From Ustilago trichophora (lineage: Eukaryota > Basidiomycota > Ustilaginomycetes > Ustilaginales > Ustilaginaceae): DNA of 64,000 bases. The translations under genes and the position numbers were made by a program. The notes under the pieces are model-generated. The model searched no databases. It saw only the letters and a program-made list of their open reading frames with translations, and was not told where the DNA came from. Positions 489-53,779 of the stretch are shown one piece after another (the stretch's first letter is position 1; every line of letters begins with the position of its first letter). The DNA lies in assembly GCA_900323505.1 (NCBI GenBank), contig OOIN01000005.1:1364001-1428000 (forward strand), given 5' to 3'.

Positions 489-820
489 GCTGGGGAGCAA
501 CAAGCAGATCAAGAGTATGGTCCGAGAAAGGCCACTATACCCCGCCAGATAGGCACACAAGGTCTCTAGCGCTCGACCACATCGCCTCTCAAGTTGCGAT
601 ACTCCGTTCGCACAACAATGTCTCTTTCGACAGGACGAATCAACTGTATTTGTACCTCATGCTCACCGTAACTCAACATTCACATGGATTTGCTCGCTAC
701 ACACGCACACACACACAGACACCACAGACCAATTGGCGAACGGTGAATTAGTGATGGCGGCACTGTACATTCCAATGAGCCCATCGACATACATTCCAAA
801 CATTCCTATGCGATCGACAT

Positions 821-2344
821 CTAAGGAGTGAAAGCCCATCTGCCTTCGATCTTCCTGCCAAACAACTTCTCGGCATTGTCCAGGACCTCTTTCCTTCCTT
901 TGAGCTCCAATCCCTTGGGACCCATCTCTTCCAATCTGAATCCACCAAGACCTTGTATGGGTGCATCGTTCTCACCCTGCAACTTTGCCGGGATGGGCAG
1001 GGTAGGCGGCATCCACCTTGGCGCGCCTCTCCTGTCCTTCTTCTTCAACAGACCTACCGCAATCTTGATCTCTTCGCCCCACCAGCCAGCAGAACCCTTG
1101 GGATAAGGCCTCGAATAGACGGGTTCGTTCTCATACCAGCCCAACTCCATTCGCCAAGCTGCAGGCTTGAAGCCGCTCTCTCCATCCTTTTCACCGGTCG
1201 CAGCGTGATTGCCGACGGGGCACACTTTGCCGTCTTCAGCACGAGCACCGGAAGCAGGGCATACGGAAGGAATGCCTTGCTGCAGCAGATGTTCAATGGA
1301 GAAGACGTTGCCCTTCTCATCCGCACCAATAGGAATATTGCTGAGCGGCTTGGAACGGGGAAGGAACAAAGTGCGAATCAGCATCGCGCGGACGCTGAAG
1401 AGTGTATCTTTGAACCAGACGATCCAGCTCGGCGGAATGGGGTAGCCCATGGCTGTTCGCAATCGATCGTCCATCAGCGATGCCACCAGATTGCGGGCGA
1501 AACCGTGCATAAACGAAGGCAAAGAATACATGAGCAAGTTGGTCGTATGGTCCGCAACATCCTTGTTGCACTGTTTGAAGACCATGTAATTCTTCTCGTA
1601 TTCGACGCTCCATTCGGCGAACTCTTCCAGGTTATCGGGGATGTCTTTGATTCCCATGCATCTGCCAATATGGTAGAACATCGAAAACAGGGCTTCCTTT
1701 TCAAGTGGGCTCATCTGACGCCATTCGTACCTGTCGATCCACTTGGGGGGTTCGAGGACGAACGTGCTCAGTGTGTACATGAGATCGTTGTTAGAGATCT
1801 TGCTCTTCCATCTTCCGTGCAGAAAGTTGACCCTGGCCAGAGAGATGGAGGATCTCGGGTCATCGGGGTCTTCACCAAAGTGTTCCCAGTTGTCGCCCTC
1901 TTCTTTGTTCTTTGCCAGGTCGGCTTCACCGCCGTCAGGCAGATCAAGGCGGGGCAAGGGGAACGTCATGAAAGCCTGAATCAGACCCGAAGTGTCGACG
2001 TATCGACGACCGGCATTCTCCGCTTTACCCAGCTGGCCAGTGTGCAGCAACAGCGTCGAGATGGTCGGGATACCGTAGGTGCGGAAGAGGGCGAACTCGA
2101 GCGATTTGGTAAAGACAAAGGGGTTGTCGACGCTGGCCGAAAGGCGAACGATGCGTTGGGCATCGCGAACGCCTCGATACGAGTCGATCATACGCGGCTT
2201 GCCCGGATTGGCCCCCGTGCTGGAGATAGCGTAGCGCGAACCATAGCGCTTGTGGATGTGACGATATCGTGAGAAGCGTACAAGTTGGACGCGGGCAAGG
2301 TGGATGGCGAGAAGGCCTACGGCCCAGATCAACCACGTCTGCAT
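821..2344 (-). CDS. MpaB-like ER-bound oxygenase (DUF2236), 507 aa
   Basis: The start is the ATG at 2344-2342; a TTG three codons upstream is not needed. Residues 1-20 form a hydrophobic N-terminal anchor, consistent with ER attachment. The rest is soluble and helical, with the pattern of the DUF2236/rubber-oxygenase catalytic fold: a Thr/Ser-rich helix, YEWRQMSPLEKEAL, then FYHIGRCMGIKDIP, then EFAEWSVEYEKNYMVF. Fungal MpaB proteins are ER-bound and in mycophenolate producers cleave a farnesyl double bond; the family resembles haem-containing latex-clearing protein. Most fungal homologues have no known substrate, and no terpene or polyketide genes lie nearby, so I do not infer mycophenolate chemistry. 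A TATA-like stretch (GTATATATTG) lies ~85 bases upstream of the ATG. The family call is fairly secure; the reaction is unknown. Confidence 0.75.
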   Translation of the reverse strand: MQTWLIWAVGLLAIHLARVQLVRFSRYRHIHKRYGSRYAISSTGANPGKPRMIDSYRGVRDAQRIVRLSASVDNPFVFTKSLEFALFRTYGIPTISTLLLHTGQLGKAENAGRRYVDTSGLIQAFMTFPLPRLDLPDGGEADLAKNKEEGDNWEHFGEDPDDPRSSISLARVNFLHGRWKSKISNNDLMYTLSTFVLEPPKWIDRYEWRQMSPLEKEALFSMFYHIGRCMGIKDIPDNLEEFAEWSVEYEKNYMVFKQCNKDVADHTTNLLMYSLPSFMHGFARNLVASLMDDRLRTAMGYPIPPSWIVWFKDTLFSVRAMLIRTLFLPRSKPLSNIPIGADEKGNVFSIEHLLQQGIPSVCPASGARAEDGKVCPVGNHAATGEKDGESGFKPAAWRMELGWYENEPVYSRPYPKGSAGWWGEEIKIAVGLLKKKDRRGAPRWMPPTLPIPAKLQGENDAPIQGLGGFRLEEMGPKGLELKGRKEVLDNAEKLFGRKIEGRWAFTP

Positions 2345-3194
2345 GGTTTCCAAGTGAGGAGGGGAAGACGGGTGGAAGTCACGAGGGAGATGCGGGGAAA
2401 GAGCAGGGATGGAAAGACGATCTAAAAGGCGGGGTATATATTGAAATCCATGGATGCCAAAAAAAAGTGCACCGTTGCAATGCTGGAGCAGTTCTACAGG
2501 ACCCTATCATGTAGCACCGATTTGCACCCTAGCGAGGGAGCACGGGGCAGAAGATGCTGCAAAAGCAAAACGCGCCTTATTGTGACGTTCTCTGTTCGAC
2601 ATCTGTCCCTTCTTTGGCTGCTGTGCGGGGGCTTCTCGAACATGCATCCAGATTGTATGCATGCGACGCTGCTGAAGTGTACCACTGTGTACTCTGCATG
2701 TGATTGTACGAGCTTGTTCATCTTCACGATCATCTCTTGGCATCTTCGCTGACGTGGCCTTCCATTCCGGTCCACGACGAGCGTAAAAGCGATTCCGAGC
2801 TGTATACTGTACACAGATAATGCCAAGAGCAAGCAGGTGAAAGCCAATATTGCACCCATGAGACAGAGTCGATGTGGAACGAACAGCTGATGTTGCATCA
2901 CAAGGATCTCTGCAACGGACGAAATCCGAGCCAGAGAAGTGGGGGAACGGGGCGACAAGAATTTGGGAAAGGTCCCCATTCTCAAGGCATTGGCGCTAAG
3001 CCAGGCTCCATCCGAACGAACGCTTCAAAAGAAAAAGATGACCCGAAAGTTGCTCTTCTCGTTATCCTTCGCCATCCATGCACTCCACAAAAAGACACTT
3101 TAAGCATCGGAGAGTCGACAGATCTGCATCAGCTCGCTTGGAATCCAAGTCCCGACCCTTACGATGTAATAATTTTTGACACATCACCATTCCT

Positions 3195-3245
<51 letters not shown>

Positions 3246-4253
3246 TTTTGTCTCCTTTTTCCCGTCTGATTGCGGGTAGGATTGAAGAAGAAGAGCGAAG
3301 CGCAAGAAAAGATTAACTTTTCCCCGCATTTTTTCCTTCCAACCCCAAAACGAAAGGGTCCCTACTTTTGCCAAGCGTAATTTAGCCGCACATTGAAGCC
3401 ACCATTGGAATGCAAGTTTGATGCCCTCTATCGTATATCCCGCTTTGCACACGTGAGCATAGCGTGAGGCCAACGCCTGATCATCCCACCATTCTGGATT
3501 GGGGGGGTTCTTTTGTTCTGCTTTAACATGGAAGAGATCTCTGATCACGATATGTCTTTACGTCTCACGTTCATTCCGAGTCAGAGTGAATTGTGAAGGG
3601 ATTTGTTTTGCCAATCACAGTGGGAGCCTTGAACAGGAGAAACGTTCAAACGATGTAGGTGCAACAGTCCCTTCTGTCCGCTCTGGAGCCTGTCATAGCA
3701 GCATGGTTCGGATCGTTAGTGCAAGTGGTAGGCTCCTTCTGATGCAGCTTGACCTGATCGCATCGGCCGGGTGTGGTTCAACCTCGGCATTGGGTTGAGT
3801 CGGTCTGATGCTGCAGAACCAGGAATCAACAAAGTAATACCCAAAAAGACATTCGAAAAACGCGAAAAAAAAAAGGGACGTGATAATTCGAGCCGAAAAG
3901 ATGAGACACATCATGGTAAAATGGTAAGGACGAGTTTCACTCTGGCTCGTGTGATACTGGCTCGCTGATTGCAACTCAAACCGTTGGATGCTGGAATGCC
4001 CCACGTAAGCACGAACGAACGAAGTATATGTTTTGTGATACAAGTGTTTGGTTCTGAGAAGCAAGGCATAATTGGTGAGGCGAGCTGCGCAGAGCAAGTC
4101 GACCAAATCATCCAAGATACTGTACATGTGATGTTGTACAACAGGCGAGAAGCAGAGAAGAAAGTCCAAATCCAGAGTCAAAGAGCTACAGCCCAAAAAG
4201 AGACGACGCTAGCATAGCTAAAGGAAGAAAGGAGAGCGATGATGGCCTTTCAA
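2345..4253. other. Intergenic region without recognisable gene
   Basis: About 1.9 kb between the MpaB-like gene and the 3' end of HAP5. Open frames up to 167 codons occur on both strands, but none shows a family pattern and several run through a CT microsatellite. Because the downstream gene points toward this region, it contains the 5' region of the MpaB-like gene and the 3' region of HAP5. A TACTGTACA-type motif occurs near 2806 and 4119. Confidence 0.6.
3199..3247. repeat. (CT)n microsatellite
   Basis: An almost pure CT dinucleotide run of about 48 bases with one TT interruption, followed by a T-rich stretch. It lies in intergenic DNA and is likely length-variable between isolates. Confidence 0.9.
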
Positions 4254-48594: not shown

Positions 48595-50599
48595 TCACAC
48601 CTCGACCTCATCACAGTCAAGCTGAGGCTGAGTGGCAGACTCGTTGACAATGCAAGCGAAATCAGTCGCCTGTTTACCAAGGGCGATCATTGGGTGATGC
48701 CAGATACCGGGAAGGTACTGGATCGCTTGCTCCGTTGTAGCCAAGAAGACGCCCAAGGTGTTCAAATCTGGCCGGTCATCTGTAAATCCCACCAAAGCGC
48801 AATCCAGGCAAAATGAAACGTGTCAGAGTCAGTACTTGCTTCTTCTTCATCTCTCGAGTCTTGGGGAAGGAGGGTGCGGATTTGAAGGGGTACCTTGACC
48901 ATTAAGCGCAACGACGACGAGGAAACCCTGCTGTTGACCGTTGATGGGTACCATAGGAATGAATGCCTGCGTTGTGAATCTGTGCCTTTCGAGCAGCTTG
49001 ACCTCGAATGGCAGGCTTGTTGCAGGGTCGCAACGGTAAACGTGTATGTTTGTTTTTGCACCTGCTTGGTTGGGATAGTTGTTGAGAATCTCGGCCAGGT
49101 TGAGATACTTTTTGGCCGTGCCTTGGTTTACGATCTTGAAAGGCTTATCGAGAGGGTTTTGGCAAGAAGGACCGTCGATGACCGCTCCGTATCTCTCGAA
49201 TGCTGGTGTGGTGAGAGGGATGGCGGGGATGAATTTACCATGGACCAAGATTCCCATGGTTGTCGATGTCGTCATTGCCGAGGTGGTACTGGTGGAAGGA
49301 GCGAGGGAAGTTTCGGCACTTACTGGAGCAAAAGGGTCCGAAGTGGCCGATGGCAAAGGGTCCTGAATGTCTGCTGGTACAGCAACGGCGGGGAGGGAAG
49401 CGGGGGAGAGCTGCGCCGAGAGAATGGGACCGGCACGACGACCGTGTACGCGGAAACGCTTGATACCGCCATCCGGGTGCATCTTGACCATAACGTGTGT
49501 GAAGGGGGCAGAGTTGCCCTCGGGAAGCGCGAAGAAATGACGACGACCGGGACCGAGTTTGGTACGAGGCAAGAGGGTGACCCATTGAGCGTCAGCAGAG
49601 GGGATCGAGGAGGAGTTGTGCACGGTACCCAAGATCTCGGTCGACTCGGGAAAGTTGCCAAGGAAGTGGGCTGTGTCAACTTCTGCGTACGAGAGGAAGC
49701 CTGGCTCGCCCCTATCATGACGGACCACATGAAATGAAAGCAAAGACCAAGGCAATGTCAGTATATGAGACCCGTGAGAAGGAAGAGAGGGAAGGGAAAG
49801 AATCAACTCACAGCTTGACAATGGACCAGTTGAAGTGACCCTTTGCACGCGATCGACGAGTCTCCCAACCGTCACCCATGTCCTTACCCCTACCAGGCAA
49901 GATGATGTTGCTACCAGCACCAAAGTGGTTGTCATCGGTGAAGACGACCCTACCACCGTTCAGGCAGTGGGCCAAATCGAGGACGTTGTAAGCGCTGTTT
50001 TCAGCGTTGACTTGTTCACCCTCACCCTGACCGACAGGCGGTGGGGGGATGACACCGTATACACGGAACCTGGCAATACCACCATCTGGAATCATGTGCA
50101 GCTTGATGTGGGTGTAGAATTTGTCTCCTTTACCCTCGGCGACCTTGAAGAGATGTCTCTGCGAAGGACCGCAAGGTGTGACGGGAACGACGCACTCCCA
50201 TCTCGCGTCGTTCTCAGCGAGGGCGTTGGCTGTAGCAGCTTCCTCCTCGGGAGTGAGAGCGAGAGCGTGAATCGAAATCTCTGGAGCTTCATTACCGTTG
50301 AAGTTGGCAGTGTCGACGTCGAATCCGATCAAACGACCACCTGCGCTGGGGCCGAGACGTAGGATGACCCAATCATAGGTTGGGTTGTGACGGCGTGTCT
50401 CCCAACCATCGAAGAGAGCGCCTTTGGGACCGAATTGACCTTTGAGAGAAGGGGCAGGGCCGACTTTGAGAAGCGAAGAGGCGGGAGCAAACCACTCGTC
50501 AGAGGTGCTGAGGATACGTCCACCAAGAGCGACCGAGGAGATCTCGGTGGAGGTGGAGCCAAGGACGGCGTCAAATTGGTCGAGGGGGATCGCTGTCAT
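48595..50599 (-). CDS. Bifunctional allantoicase-ureidoglycolate lyase
   Basis: Three exons on the minus strand: 50599-49812, 49711-48894 and 48779-48595. Introns are 100 nt (GTGAGT...GATAG) and 114 nt (GTACCC...TTTACAG); 596 residues in one frame. Residues ~1-360 are two allantoicase repeats: the first with GGRILSTSDEWFAPASSLL and LFDGWETRRHNPTYDWVILRLG, the second with GGRVVFTDDNHFGAGSNIILPG, DGWETRRSRAKGHFNWSIVKLG and YAEVDTAHFLGN. A Ser/Thr/Pro linker (~365-415) leads to a ureidoglycolate lyase domain (~418-596): AIPLTTPAFERYGAVI, RCDPATSLPFEVKLLERH, QAFIPMVPINGQ, DDRPDLNTLGVFLA, GIWHHPMIALG. The protein would convert allantoate to urea and ureidoglycolate, then to glyoxylate and urea. 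Both splices restore conserved motifs, so the fusion is well supported. Confidence 0.9.
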
Positions 50600-51295
50600 T
50601 GTTGGAATCTTGATCGATTTGCTAGATGAGGATGAGGAGGAAAAAGACGAAGGAAGAAAGGAAGAGCGGAGAATAGTATATGAATCAGCTGAGGGGCAAA
50701 TTGACTCGGAAAGTATCGTTTGGACTAACGTTGACCGTCCCACGAGACGAGACCAACCCCGCGTGTCTCTCAAACCCCAACCACTGTACCGCTCCGGTAA
50801 ATGGGCCGAATCCTTGCTTCTCGATTCTGCATCTCATTGCCAAGCATTGTCCGGCACAATACGACCATGCAAACTGTCACTCCACCCTCGACTCTGTGCT
50901 CCATTCATGCTTTACTCAACACCTCGTCGCTGCCCTTGACATGTATGAACCAAGAGCCAATTGGAGGCTGAATGTCGTTCGTTGAACAAGGATGTAACCA
51001 TGTCGTGCTTTGGTATTGGGCTCGGCCAAGTCCGATGGTAGGAAGAATTCGCGTGCAAATTGGTCAAAGCTCAAAATTACACAGACGCAGATCCTTCGGT
51101 ATTCATTACGGCACGGAAACTCACCCGTTTTCTTCTTAGGCACCCGATGAACCCGATCCACTTCTATACCTGCGCTCGTTCAATCGCTCAACGTCAAGTC
51201 AATTCATAGAGATTGTTTCCATGTCTATCCATTCTTCCATTCCTGCAAAATGATCCTGAAATGTAGCAATGCAATGCCATTATAGATACAACAAT
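50600..51295. other. Intergenic region, no gene seen
   Basis: About 700 bases between two minus-strand genes: the allantoicase fusion's promoter (left) and the PAF-AH gene's 3' region (right). No recognisable gene or motif. Confidence 0.6.
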
Positions 51296-53779
51296 TCACA
51301 CCGCGTGGATTACCAGCCTTCCCAGCCTGTCACCATCGCTTCCAACCACCGACTCGTCCAAATCTCCAGGCCGAGGCTTGCCCTCCTTCCAGATCCTCCA
51401 CGCCTGTTTATCATTCTCGCCCTTAAGCCCTTCAAACACTCCCTGGTCCTCCTCGCACTTTCCATCCAGAATCATCCGCTGCGTAATCCCCACATTCACT
51501 TCGAGAATCGCCTGTGACCCTACGCTGCCGACAAACTTGCTCATGCTTGGCAGCAAGAAGGGGAAATCCGAGAACGATGTGTGTTGACTCGCTTTCATTT
51601 CCTGCACCTGTTGATCCTTGTGGTACGTCCATCCTTTTGCGGGTGCTGCAGTCTTCTTGGACCCAAGATCGCGCTCAAAAGCCAGAATTTTTTCAGACAC
51701 CTCCGCCAAGTCGCGCCCAACGACATCAGGAGTGCCGTAGACAGAAGCACAAGAGTAGAACTCTTCGTAGGTAACCCAGGCTGTGCGGAAGCCTGCTTGC
51801 TTGGCAGCAAAAGTGTCCCATGTGTGCGAGGCAACGAACCATATCCCCTGATATTCCTTTTGGGCTGAATTCGCGTCCAGAGGTTCGGCCTTGATACGGC
51901 GCAGCACTTCAGCGTAGACTTTCGGATCAGGTTTGGCTACACCAATCTCGTCACAGCTAAACAGTCCGATGCCAGATCCAATGTTGCTGTCTTGTGCAGA
52001 GCGGCCAGAACGAGCGGCATCGCTGTCGAGGTCGGCTCCATCGCTCTCGCCAAGTGCACGGAGGAAGGATGCTCGACCAAGTTCAAGTGAGCCATTGGTG
52101 GCTGCCCAGACATCAACCTTGTCTACACCAGCCGGCAGGCGACCCTTGCCATCGCGATCACGATAGATGCGGGTCAGGGCGTCGACCATACCGGGTCGAG
52201 GTCGAAGCTTCTTCAGCGCGCCCATCATCGTTTCCACCACCACTGGATCGAATGGGTTCTGCAGCGCTTCCTCTGCCGGTCCGTCGTCTGCGTAGGATCC
52301 GGCCTTGGTGAGAGCCTCACCCTTGCCATTCTTCTTGGGCAATATACCTGCCTGGAGAAGAACACGCGGAAGCGTCCCCTTGAACACCTCGGAGATGGGT
52401 TTGTACTGTCCACAGACGCTCGAATAGGTGAAATCGCGCTGAGTGCCGTGGAACCAGTCCATGATTACGAGCTCTGGTACAATCTTGGGTACTCCTTCCT
52501 TCGGCTCCAACTGGTCAGGGAAGAGCGATTGAAGCGCTTCGATACACGCATCCAGTCCGAACAGCGTACCAAACATGTCGTGCACAATGACCAATCTCGA
52601 TGGTGGTCCCGCGGTCTGTGATGCAACCAAGGACGCGGCATCTGACTTTTCAGTGCCTTCGGCGCCGATTGTCAGCAGCCAACCTTTGCCGCTCGTGCTG
52701 GCCTTGCTCTCGCGAGAAATGGTGGTCACATCATCCATATGCGAAGTCCACTGCGTAAAATCTTCGCTGTTGATCGTGTACAGTGGCTTGCTGACGGGTA
52801 CCACATCTGCGCCCGTGATAGGGATAGGTTCTACCCAAGGATCGAGCACCAGCGCTTGGCCAAAGGGACAATCAGTGTTGCGCAGGGTCTGAATGGCAGT
52901 AGATCCACCAAAGCTGTGACCAATGAGCCAAGGGTCCTGCATCTTGAGTTTGCTTTTAAAGCTGGAGAGAAGACGAGAGCGATGCTCGCCGATCTTGTTG
53001 TCATCGCGCTGGGTGCGAGTGCAGGATTCGACGAGGGTGGAAGCTCTGCCGTCGTTAATCTCTTGAAGAATGTTGAGAGCGGCAAGGACTTCTCTGCGAC
53101 GAAACTCGACTTGAGCTCGGCGCACGTCCATTGGTTCTGGCTTGCCATCGATTTCGGTGGGTCGCACATAGATCTTGTTCTCCACGCCATTGGAGCTTCC
53201 AGAGAACCATCGAAAGAGTCCTGACGAGCTTTGACTGTCCTTTCCAAGAGCATGATGGATTGTAGTTGATGCCGACGAGCCATCACGGTGCTCGATAGCA
53301 GCTACCACGATGCCCGATGCCGCAAGCGAAGAACAATAGGCCGAGTAGGTTGTCCGGGTGCCGCCCATGCCGTGGCTAAACACAGCTACAGGGAAGCCTT
53401 GCGAAGGAGCATCAGAGGCGAGAGGTGCATCGACAGCAGCTGGCAGCTTCTGCGATACAACGCTGTAGGCGGGCAAGATGATGGGAAGAGCGAGGTACTT
53501 GGGAATGCCTGCGTATTTGAGAAGACCACCGATGGAGCGCAGTTTGGGTGCTTCGAGCCAATCAAGAGATCGATCTGGCGCCGCATCCTTTGCGTTTGAG
53601 GCAGGGTAGTAGATGGTGAGAAGAGTGGTGTCTGCGGTGAGGAGCTCCTTGGTCACACCTCCATCCTGGTAGGTGTACGGGTCAGGCGAATCTTGCTTGA
53701 TCGGTGAAGGTAGGGGGATTTCTAGCGTGACCGTAGAAACAGCATAACGCACATTCTGTGACGGCTGTGGGAGCAACAT
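51296..53779 (-). CDS. PAF-acetylhydrolase with HAD (haloacid-dehalogenase) domain inserted before the catalytic His
   Basis: ATG at 53779-53777, 827 residues, one uninterrupted frame. Residues ~1-385 match the N-terminal part of plasma-type PAF-acetylhydrolase: GFPVAVFSHGMGGTRTTYSAY (oxyanion region), VVAAIEHRDGS, nucleophile motif GHSFGG (Ser289) and ALVLDPWVEPI (Asp313). At ~395 a complete HAD domain begins: LVIVHDMFGTLFG (nucleophile Asp401), AATNGS (~560), GVAKPDPKVY (~615) and WFVASHTWDTFAAKQAGF (~656), which matches 2-haloacid dehalogenases. After ~700 the lipase resumes with ASQHTSFSDFPFLLP, the PAF-AH histidine motif (His733), and its C-terminal helix. Ser-Asp spacing (24) is normal (23 in the human enzyme), but Asp-His is 420 instead of 55. 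Both active sites look intact; substrates are unknown. Confidence 0.85.
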   Translation of the reverse strand: MLLPQPSQNVRYAVSTVTLEIPLPSPIKQDSPDPYTYQDGGVTKELLTADTTLLTIYYPASNAKDAAPDRSLDWLEAPKLRSIGGLLKYAGIPKYLALPIILPAYSVVSQKLPAAVDAPLASDAPSQGFPVAVFSHGMGGTRTTYSAYCSSLAASGIVVAAIEHRDGSSASTTIHHALGKDSQSSSGLFRWFSGSSNGVENKIYVRPTEIDGKPEPMDVRRAQVEFRRREVLAALNILQEINDGRASTLVESCTRTQRDDNKIGEHRSRLLSSFKSKLKMQDPWLIGHSFGGSTAIQTLRNTDCPFGQALVLDPWVEPIPITGADVVPVSKPLYTINSEDFTQWTSHMDDVTTISRESKASTSGKGWLLTIGAEGTEKSDAASLVASQTAGPPSRLVIVHDMFGTLFGLDACIEALQSLFPDQLEPKEGVPKIVPELVIMDWFHGTQRDFTYSSVCGQYKPISEVFKGTLPRVLLQAGILPKKNGKGEALTKAGSYADDGPAEEALQNPFDPVVVETMMGALKKLRPRPGMVDALTRIYRDRDGKGRLPAGVDKVDVWAATNGSLELGRASFLRALGESDGADLDSDAARSGRSAQDSNIGSGIGLFSCDEIGVAKPDPKVYAEVLRRIKAEPLDANSAQKEYQGIWFVASHTWDTFAAKQAGFRTAWVTYEEFYSCASVYGTPDVVGRDLAEVSEKILAFERDLGSKKTAAPAKGWTYHKDQQVQEMKASQHTSFSDFPFLLPSMSKFVGSVGSQAILEVNVGITQRMILDGKCEEDQGVFEGLKGENDKQAWRIWKEGKPRPGDLDESVVGSDGDRLGRLVIHAV

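Follow-up and report, generated by a model that had tools for sequence, protein, structure and literature searches.

Within the 64,000-nt stretch of Ustilago trichophora DNA analysed here (the window), a single gene encodes a protein in which one enzyme is nested inside another: a haloacid dehalogenase-type (HAD) domain lies within a serine hydrolase of the platelet-activating factor acetylhydrolase (PAF-AH) family, and this anatomy is conserved in 19 smut proteins. The nested architecture is real and, in the literature searched, undescribed, while both component families are known. With a probability of roughly two in three, we read it as a two-enzyme protein in which the HAD was inserted once into the turn between strand β8 and the catalytic His of the PAF-AH, and in which both active sites work. 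In window coordinates, its features are the following.

51296..53779, minus strand: whole gene, an 827-codon ORF for the nested PAF-AH/HAD protein; one stop-free frame, 100% match on genome contig C5
52664..53779, minus strand: residues 1-372, N-terminal part of the PAF-AH (PF03403) alpha/beta hydrolase up to strand β8; PF03403 171.7 bits, Lp-PLA2 fold
52913..52915, minus strand: codon of Ser289, nucleophile, in GHSFGG; Ser in 19/19 nested rows, pairs with GHSFGG of PAF-AH in the PDB
52841..52843, minus strand: codon of Asp313, triad acid, in LDPWVEP; Asp in 19/19 nested rows, pairs with the LDAW acid of PAF-AH in the PDB
52604..52663, minus strand: linker 1, residues 373-392, variable and of low confidence; pLDDT <50 at 378-390, length 18-41 in 19 rows
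51665..52603, minus strand: inserted HAD type-II-like domain, residues 393-705
52577..52579, minus strand: codon of Asp401, HAD nucleophile, motif D-M-F-G-T without the +2 Asp; Asp in 19/19 nested and 18/18 free rows
51932..51934, minus strand: codon of Lys616, HAD motif III; Lys in 19/19 nested and 18/18 free rows
51815..51817, minus strand: codon of Asp655, HAD motif IV (VASHTWD); Asp in 19/19 nested and 18/18 free rows
51593..51664, minus strand: linker 2, residues 706-729, low confidence; pLDDT <50 at 713-732
51299..51592, minus strand: residues 730-827, C-terminal part of the PAF-AH fold with His733; the PAF-AH match reaches model residue 826
51581..51583, minus strand: codon of His733, third triad residue, motif HTSFSDFPFLLP; His in 19/19 nested rows

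The outer enzyme, which we take to be a phospholipase A2 of the group VII/VIII kind, matched the PF03403 profile with 171.7 bits against a gathering cut-off of 20 (E = 2e-50; best stretch, residues 49-359), and the same profile matched all 20 rows of an alignment (A1) of 19 nested-type proteins and one non-nested protein. The best PDB matches of its N-terminal part were PAF-AH/Lp-PLA2 entries. Ser, Asp and His occurred in order and with their motifs in 19/19 nested rows, in which Asp738 and Pro740 of the His motif were also invariant. After β8 (WLLTI, from residue 367) the chain runs through a linker, the HAD (residues 393-705) and a second linker to QHTSFSDFPFLLP, which carries His733; a weak second phmmer stretch (-1.3 bits alone) paired this His motif with GSVHQNFADF of PAF-AH. 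The spacing between Asp313 and His733 is 420. These results confirmed the triad motifs and the complete inserted domain as they had first been read in the original prediction. Inspection of the window protein by eye showed no obvious signal peptide.

The insertion site could be fixed to within a few residues because ordinary relatives are uninterrupted from β8 to the His. The non-nested protein P0020 of Ceraceosorus bombacis reads WLLTLTGSK-H-TDFSDFPFLLP, where the window protein has WLLTI, then the insert and then the His; in ten other non-nested proteins, and in a PAF-AH paralogue on contig C1 of the window's genome, the His motif comes directly after β8 as in P0020. The distance from Thr370 to the His was 306-421 in 19/19 nested rows versus 6 in P0020 (the latter counted by eye), which bears out the proposal of a domain insertion between the catalytic Asp and His instead of an end-to-end fusion. 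Similarly, the Ser-His spacing, measured in 18 of the 19 nested proteins, was 386-499 there, versus 77-226 in the 85 of 109 non-nested proteins measured, the search pattern having missed the His motif in the remaining 24. Sequence comparison thus places the insertion point in the turn between β8 and the catalytic His. As the catalytic His does not directly follow β8 in any of the 19 nested rows, these proteins constitute a variant of the PF03403 family. The PAF-AHs of Orbilia, Arthrobotrys, Drechslerella and Dactylellina (P0102, P0104, P0106, P0110 and P0141) presented Ser-His spacings of 207-226, indicating that other, smaller insertions exist in the PAF-AH family.

We give almost no weight to an artefact of annotation, that is, to two genes read as one or to an intron that takes out the HAD. 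The reading frame is open in both genomic copies of the nested gene, and full-length nested proteins are listed for several species. A splice scan of the junctions (codons 366-396 and 700-734) found neither a strict donor nor an in-frame GT-AG pair common to both copies and able to remove the HAD. On the open frames and the scan together, two genes or a HAD-removing intron were rejected.

The second copy of the nested gene lies on contig C3 (1904384-1906861), is 92% identical at the amino acid level and keeps the same order as in the window. The 38.8-Mb assembly appears to be doubled: of the 3000 bases at window positions 1001-4000, 2590 match C3:1855187-1857630 at 83%, and the RNA polymerase large subunits are present as three near-equal pairs. 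The assembly is probably that of a hybrid or of two genomes. The C1 paralogue (622-3111 of the extracted C1 stretch), a non-nested PAF-AH of 829 aa with normal His spacing, was found only once in the assembly; its PAF-AH part is followed by a long tail that appears by eye to be of low complexity, like that of P0022. Directly downstream of the nested gene, at 48847-50773 on the minus strand, overlapping ORFs match allantoicase repeats, with matches to allantoicase and ureidoglycolate lyase at 48847-49956; this region may represent a single gene of purine degradation that includes a fused second enzyme and is interrupted by an intron or a change of frame.

Structure models were examined for the window protein and for P0019, a shorter relative with short linkers. 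In the window model, the PAF-AH match spans residues 2-826 and the HAD match 394-704, so that the stretch of about 395-700 is predicted to fold as a HAD, as had been anticipated; strand β8 corresponds to residues 367-373. The matches in the P0019 model extend over residues 2-727 (PAF-AH) and 355-628 (HAD). The C-terminal part returns in these models to pack against the PAF-AH fold. The pTM values were 0.57 and 0.62, P0019 giving only slightly higher confidence. His733 sits between two stretches with pLDDT <50 (713-732 and 738-750), and the blocks covering 711-750 had mean values of 37-50; near the His of P0019, residues 629-642 were below 50 and block 641-650 averaged 56. In a mixed alignment (A5) with PAF-AH-only proteins, meant to add depth at the His loop, 19/19 such rows carried a gap at the His column. 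At this confidence, the models do not establish that Ser289, Asp313 and His733 would close into a triad across the HAD insert, as we propose.

The insert presents a HAD type II fold and the Asp/Lys/Asp catalytic set. Asp401, Gly404, Thr405, Thr561-Asn562-Gly563, Lys616, Tyr622, His652 and Asp655 were identical in 19 nested rows and in 18 free rows, the latter drawn from 54 HAD matches (alignment A3), and for this reason the HAD looks, from its residues, catalytically equipped. HAD phosphatases carry a motif I of the form DxDx[T/V], with a second Asp at position +2. The nested proteins have D-M-F-G-T in 19/19 rows, the +2 residue being Phe in all of them and Leu or Phe in the 18/18 free rows, and the reading as a HAD phosphatase is rejected on this motif. 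The domain had originally been called a phosphatase, and coupled deacylation and dephosphorylation of a lipid had been suggested; without the second Asp in motif I, neither the name nor the coupled reaction is supported.

A classical 2-haloacid dehalogenase was not adopted either. Against TIGR01428 (HAD_type_II), the window protein scored 50.2, the cut-out HAD domain 55.3 and P0019 61.8 bits, compared with an equivalog cut-off of 125.4; the 4/4 free relatives scanned also fell below it. The general HAD model of Pfam gave 13.6 for the window protein against a gathering cut-off of 26.4, and P0019 (29.5) was the only one of the proteins scanned to pass. In the dehalogenase L-DEX YL, Arg41, located after motif I, binds the carboxylate of the substrate. 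This position aligns, in a stretch scoring only 7 bits, with His444, which is His in 19/19 nested rows; the substrate Arg is probably missing from the insert and apparently replaced by His444. The structural neighbours of the insert included L-2-haloacid dehalogenases (PDB 1jud, 7arp, 2yml and 3um9) and cis-epoxysuccinate hydrolases (8wbk). Given the latter, the most reasonable guess, by analogy, is that the HAD hydrolyses a small functionalised carboxylate by way of an Asp ester.

A search for orthologues in other smuts had been proposed as a check, and a homology search returned 28 proteins, 19 of them nested (the window protein and 18 more). Ten carriers have species names, all of which we take to be Ustilaginomycetes: Sporisorium reilianum, S. 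graminicola, Pseudozyma hubeiensis, P. flocculosa, Melanopsichium pennsylvanicum, Ustilago hordei, Kalmanozyma brasiliensis, Moesziomyces antarcticus, Testicularia cyperi and Violaceomyces palustris. Protein P0016 has the nested layout but a scrambled C-terminal part, and it was excluded from A3, from the HAD and PAF-AH trees and from the two models. With a profile of six nested members, the 101 proteins beyond the 19 among the matches listed (120 of 167) covered at most 49% of the query. Linker lengths ranged from 18 to 41 (linker 1) and from 15 to 59 residues (linker 2). Between the two genomic copies, dN/dS was ∼0.10 for the N-terminal part, 0.065 for the HAD and ∼0.11 for the C-terminal part, the HAD showing the lowest dN of the three; linker 2 gave a dN of 0.12 and a dS of 0.21, over only 24 codons.

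Named free relatives of the HAD, of ∼230-310 residues, occur in Exobasidium, Tilletia, Ceraceosorus, Sympodiomycopsis and Microbotryomycetes; more distant relatives are found in other groups. Those used here align with the insert nearly end to end. Ceraceosorus bombacis has both halves as separate proteins, a PAF-AH of 473 aa (P0020) and a HAD of 283 aa (P0044), and the contigs of the two differ in length (longest 1,179,298 and 872,773 bases, respectively). In a HAD tree of 58 rows, which included 39 of the 54 HAD matches (the 15 left out were mainly short or very similar, such as P0030, a fragment of a nested protein), the 19 nested rows formed one group (96/64; SH-aLRT 64) beside free Tilletia HADs (93/78). 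In a PAF-AH tree of 60 rows, 41 of them non-nested (40 proteins and the C1 paralogue), the nested rows again formed one group (99/96), whose neighbour was the non-nested Ceraceosorus protein (97/84); the C1 paralogue grouped with P0022 and the Microstroma protein P0085. Both trees were midpoint-rooted for drawing. The trees and the separate Ceraceosorus halves are explained by a single insertion of a resident gene, probably in the common ancestor of the smut lineage, presumably the Ustilaginomycetes; repeated independent insertions are not needed because the nested rows form one group in both the HAD and the PAF-AH tree. A recent bacterial acquisition is not favoured, as the named free relatives found in the non-bacterial collections searched are fungal, with the exception of the amoeba Planoprotostelium. 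A search of the window's genome with the HAD as query (up to E = 10) found only the two nested copies and no free HAD. A PGK query in the same tool gave no match at all, which makes this absence weak evidence, as the search may have overlooked a free HAD whose gene contains introns. Overall, one origin from separate ancestral parts is well supported.

We propose that the short β8-His turn of a PAF-AH-family serine hydrolase received, in frame, a complete HAD-type-II-like hydrolase that had been free-standing. The chain would leave the alpha/beta hydrolase at the end of β8, build the HAD as a separately folding module that has an Asp nucleophile of its own, and come back with the His loop; the alpha/beta hydrolase would then close around the insert, with Ser289, Asp313 and His733 forming the triad across the HAD. 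We infer two activities: one would lie at the PAF-AH site and cleave a short or oxidised acyl ester; the other, at the HAD site, would hydrolyse a small substrate via its nucleophilic Asp, not as a phosphatase. The invariance of both catalytic sets in 19/19 rows makes the bifunctional enzyme envisaged in the original prediction plausible, and, since both sets are under constraint, a working bifunctional protein is, as judged from the sequences, the most likely reading. Any coupling between the two sites, including the gating of lipase activity raised in the original prediction, is speculative: two flexible linkers tether the HAD to the His loop, and its state could therefore tune the PAF-AH site.

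The two enzymes might instead work independently, the insertion having been tolerated at a surface turn. This reading, which overlaps with the two-enzyme explanation, is a substantial contender at somewhat below even odds. The linkers are variable (18-41 and 15-59 residues) and of low confidence, as in passive tethers, and PAF-AH and HAD are separate proteins in Ceraceosorus, whereas the insert adjoins a catalytic residue and the search of the window's genome, of limited sensitivity, found no free HAD. In other words, the flexible, variable linkers speak for riding along and the position beside a catalytic residue for a benefit. A stronger form of coupling, a naturally evolved allosteric or channelling pair in which the lipase triad would form, or its loop move, only in particular HAD states and in which the acyl acid released at the PAF-AH site would serve as HAD substrate, is possible but rather unlikely; if true, it would be, to our knowledge, the first case of an alpha/beta hydrolase in which a second enzyme presents the catalytic His.

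Two further readings deny one of the activities. It is quite improbable that the insertion disabled the PAF-AH site and left a HAD on a dead lipase scaffold: although the models place the His733 loop without confidence and the Asp-His spacing is 420, Ser, Asp, His, Asp738 and Pro740 are kept in 19/19 rows, and the PAF-AH parts show a dN/dS of ∼0.1, whereas a dead site should drift. We see little likelihood, too, that the HAD serves only structurally, as a cap, spacer or dimerisation module, and has no chemistry of its own. Its scores under both curated HAD cut-offs and the apparent His444 at the substrate-Arg position (where the alignment is weak) would fit such a role; against it stand the invariance of Asp401, Thr405, Thr561, Lys616 and Asp655 in 19 nested and 18 free rows and the lowest dN of the three parts.

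The public names of these proteins fit one half only, for instance ‘haloacid dehalogenase’ for P0004, which is a warning for annotation. The HAD-only proteins P0043 and P0046 are publicly named ‘platelet-activating factor acetylhydrolase’, and P0044 is among the HAD-only proteins with such or ‘PAF-1-related’ names; P0043 and P0046 may be fragments (short contigs), or their names may have been carried over from nested smut proteins. No description of the nested PAF-AH/HAD layout was found in the open literature searched, so that the earlier statement that no enzyme with this layout had been described holds there, with a precedent, DUF6792, for the position of the insertion.

Mammalian soluble epoxide hydrolase consists of a HAD phosphatase (DxD) and an Asp-nucleophile epoxide hydrolase fused end to end. 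It resembles the smut protein in joining a HAD and an alpha/beta hydrolase in one lipid-related chain, and differs from it in its end-to-end order, the smut protein being nested and using a Ser nucleophile; the two are presumably independent joinings. From HAD type II proteins and L-2-haloacid dehalogenases, the insert differs in its length (∼310 versus ∼225 residues), in being nested in another enzyme and in scoring below the TIGR01428 cut-off. With PF03403 (Lp-PLA2, PAF-AH II and fungal relatives), the window protein shares the fold, the GHSFGG serine, the LDxW acid and the His motif, but it has a HAD of ∼310 residues plus linkers between β8 and His where non-nested relatives have about four residues; PF03403 is counted in one table of PMC2409186. 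Section 2.5.3 of a 2024 survey (PMC11878206) presents the bacterial alpha/beta hydrolases of DUF6792 (PF20591) as carrying a whole domain inserted directly ahead of the catalytic His, an arrangement that it calls unique in the superfamily, and considers that this might stabilise the active site only upon substrate binding. As far as that section describes it, the likeness is one of layout only, a whole domain between β8 and the catalytic His: the DUF6792 insert is a four-helix bundle (229 residues) from Firmicutes, whereas the smut protein carries an apparently catalytically equipped HAD, and PF20591 was absent from the Pfam matches of the window protein (maximum E-value 10). The smut protein is then a second, eukaryotic case of a whole-domain insertion before the catalytic His, here with an enzyme-like insert. 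It also comes with a before-and-after history, separate in Ceraceosorus and nested in smuts, with the triads kept across the lineage, and makes it testable whether a catalytic loop can be rebuilt with a second enzyme in its midst and whether nesting of this kind lets one active site control the other.
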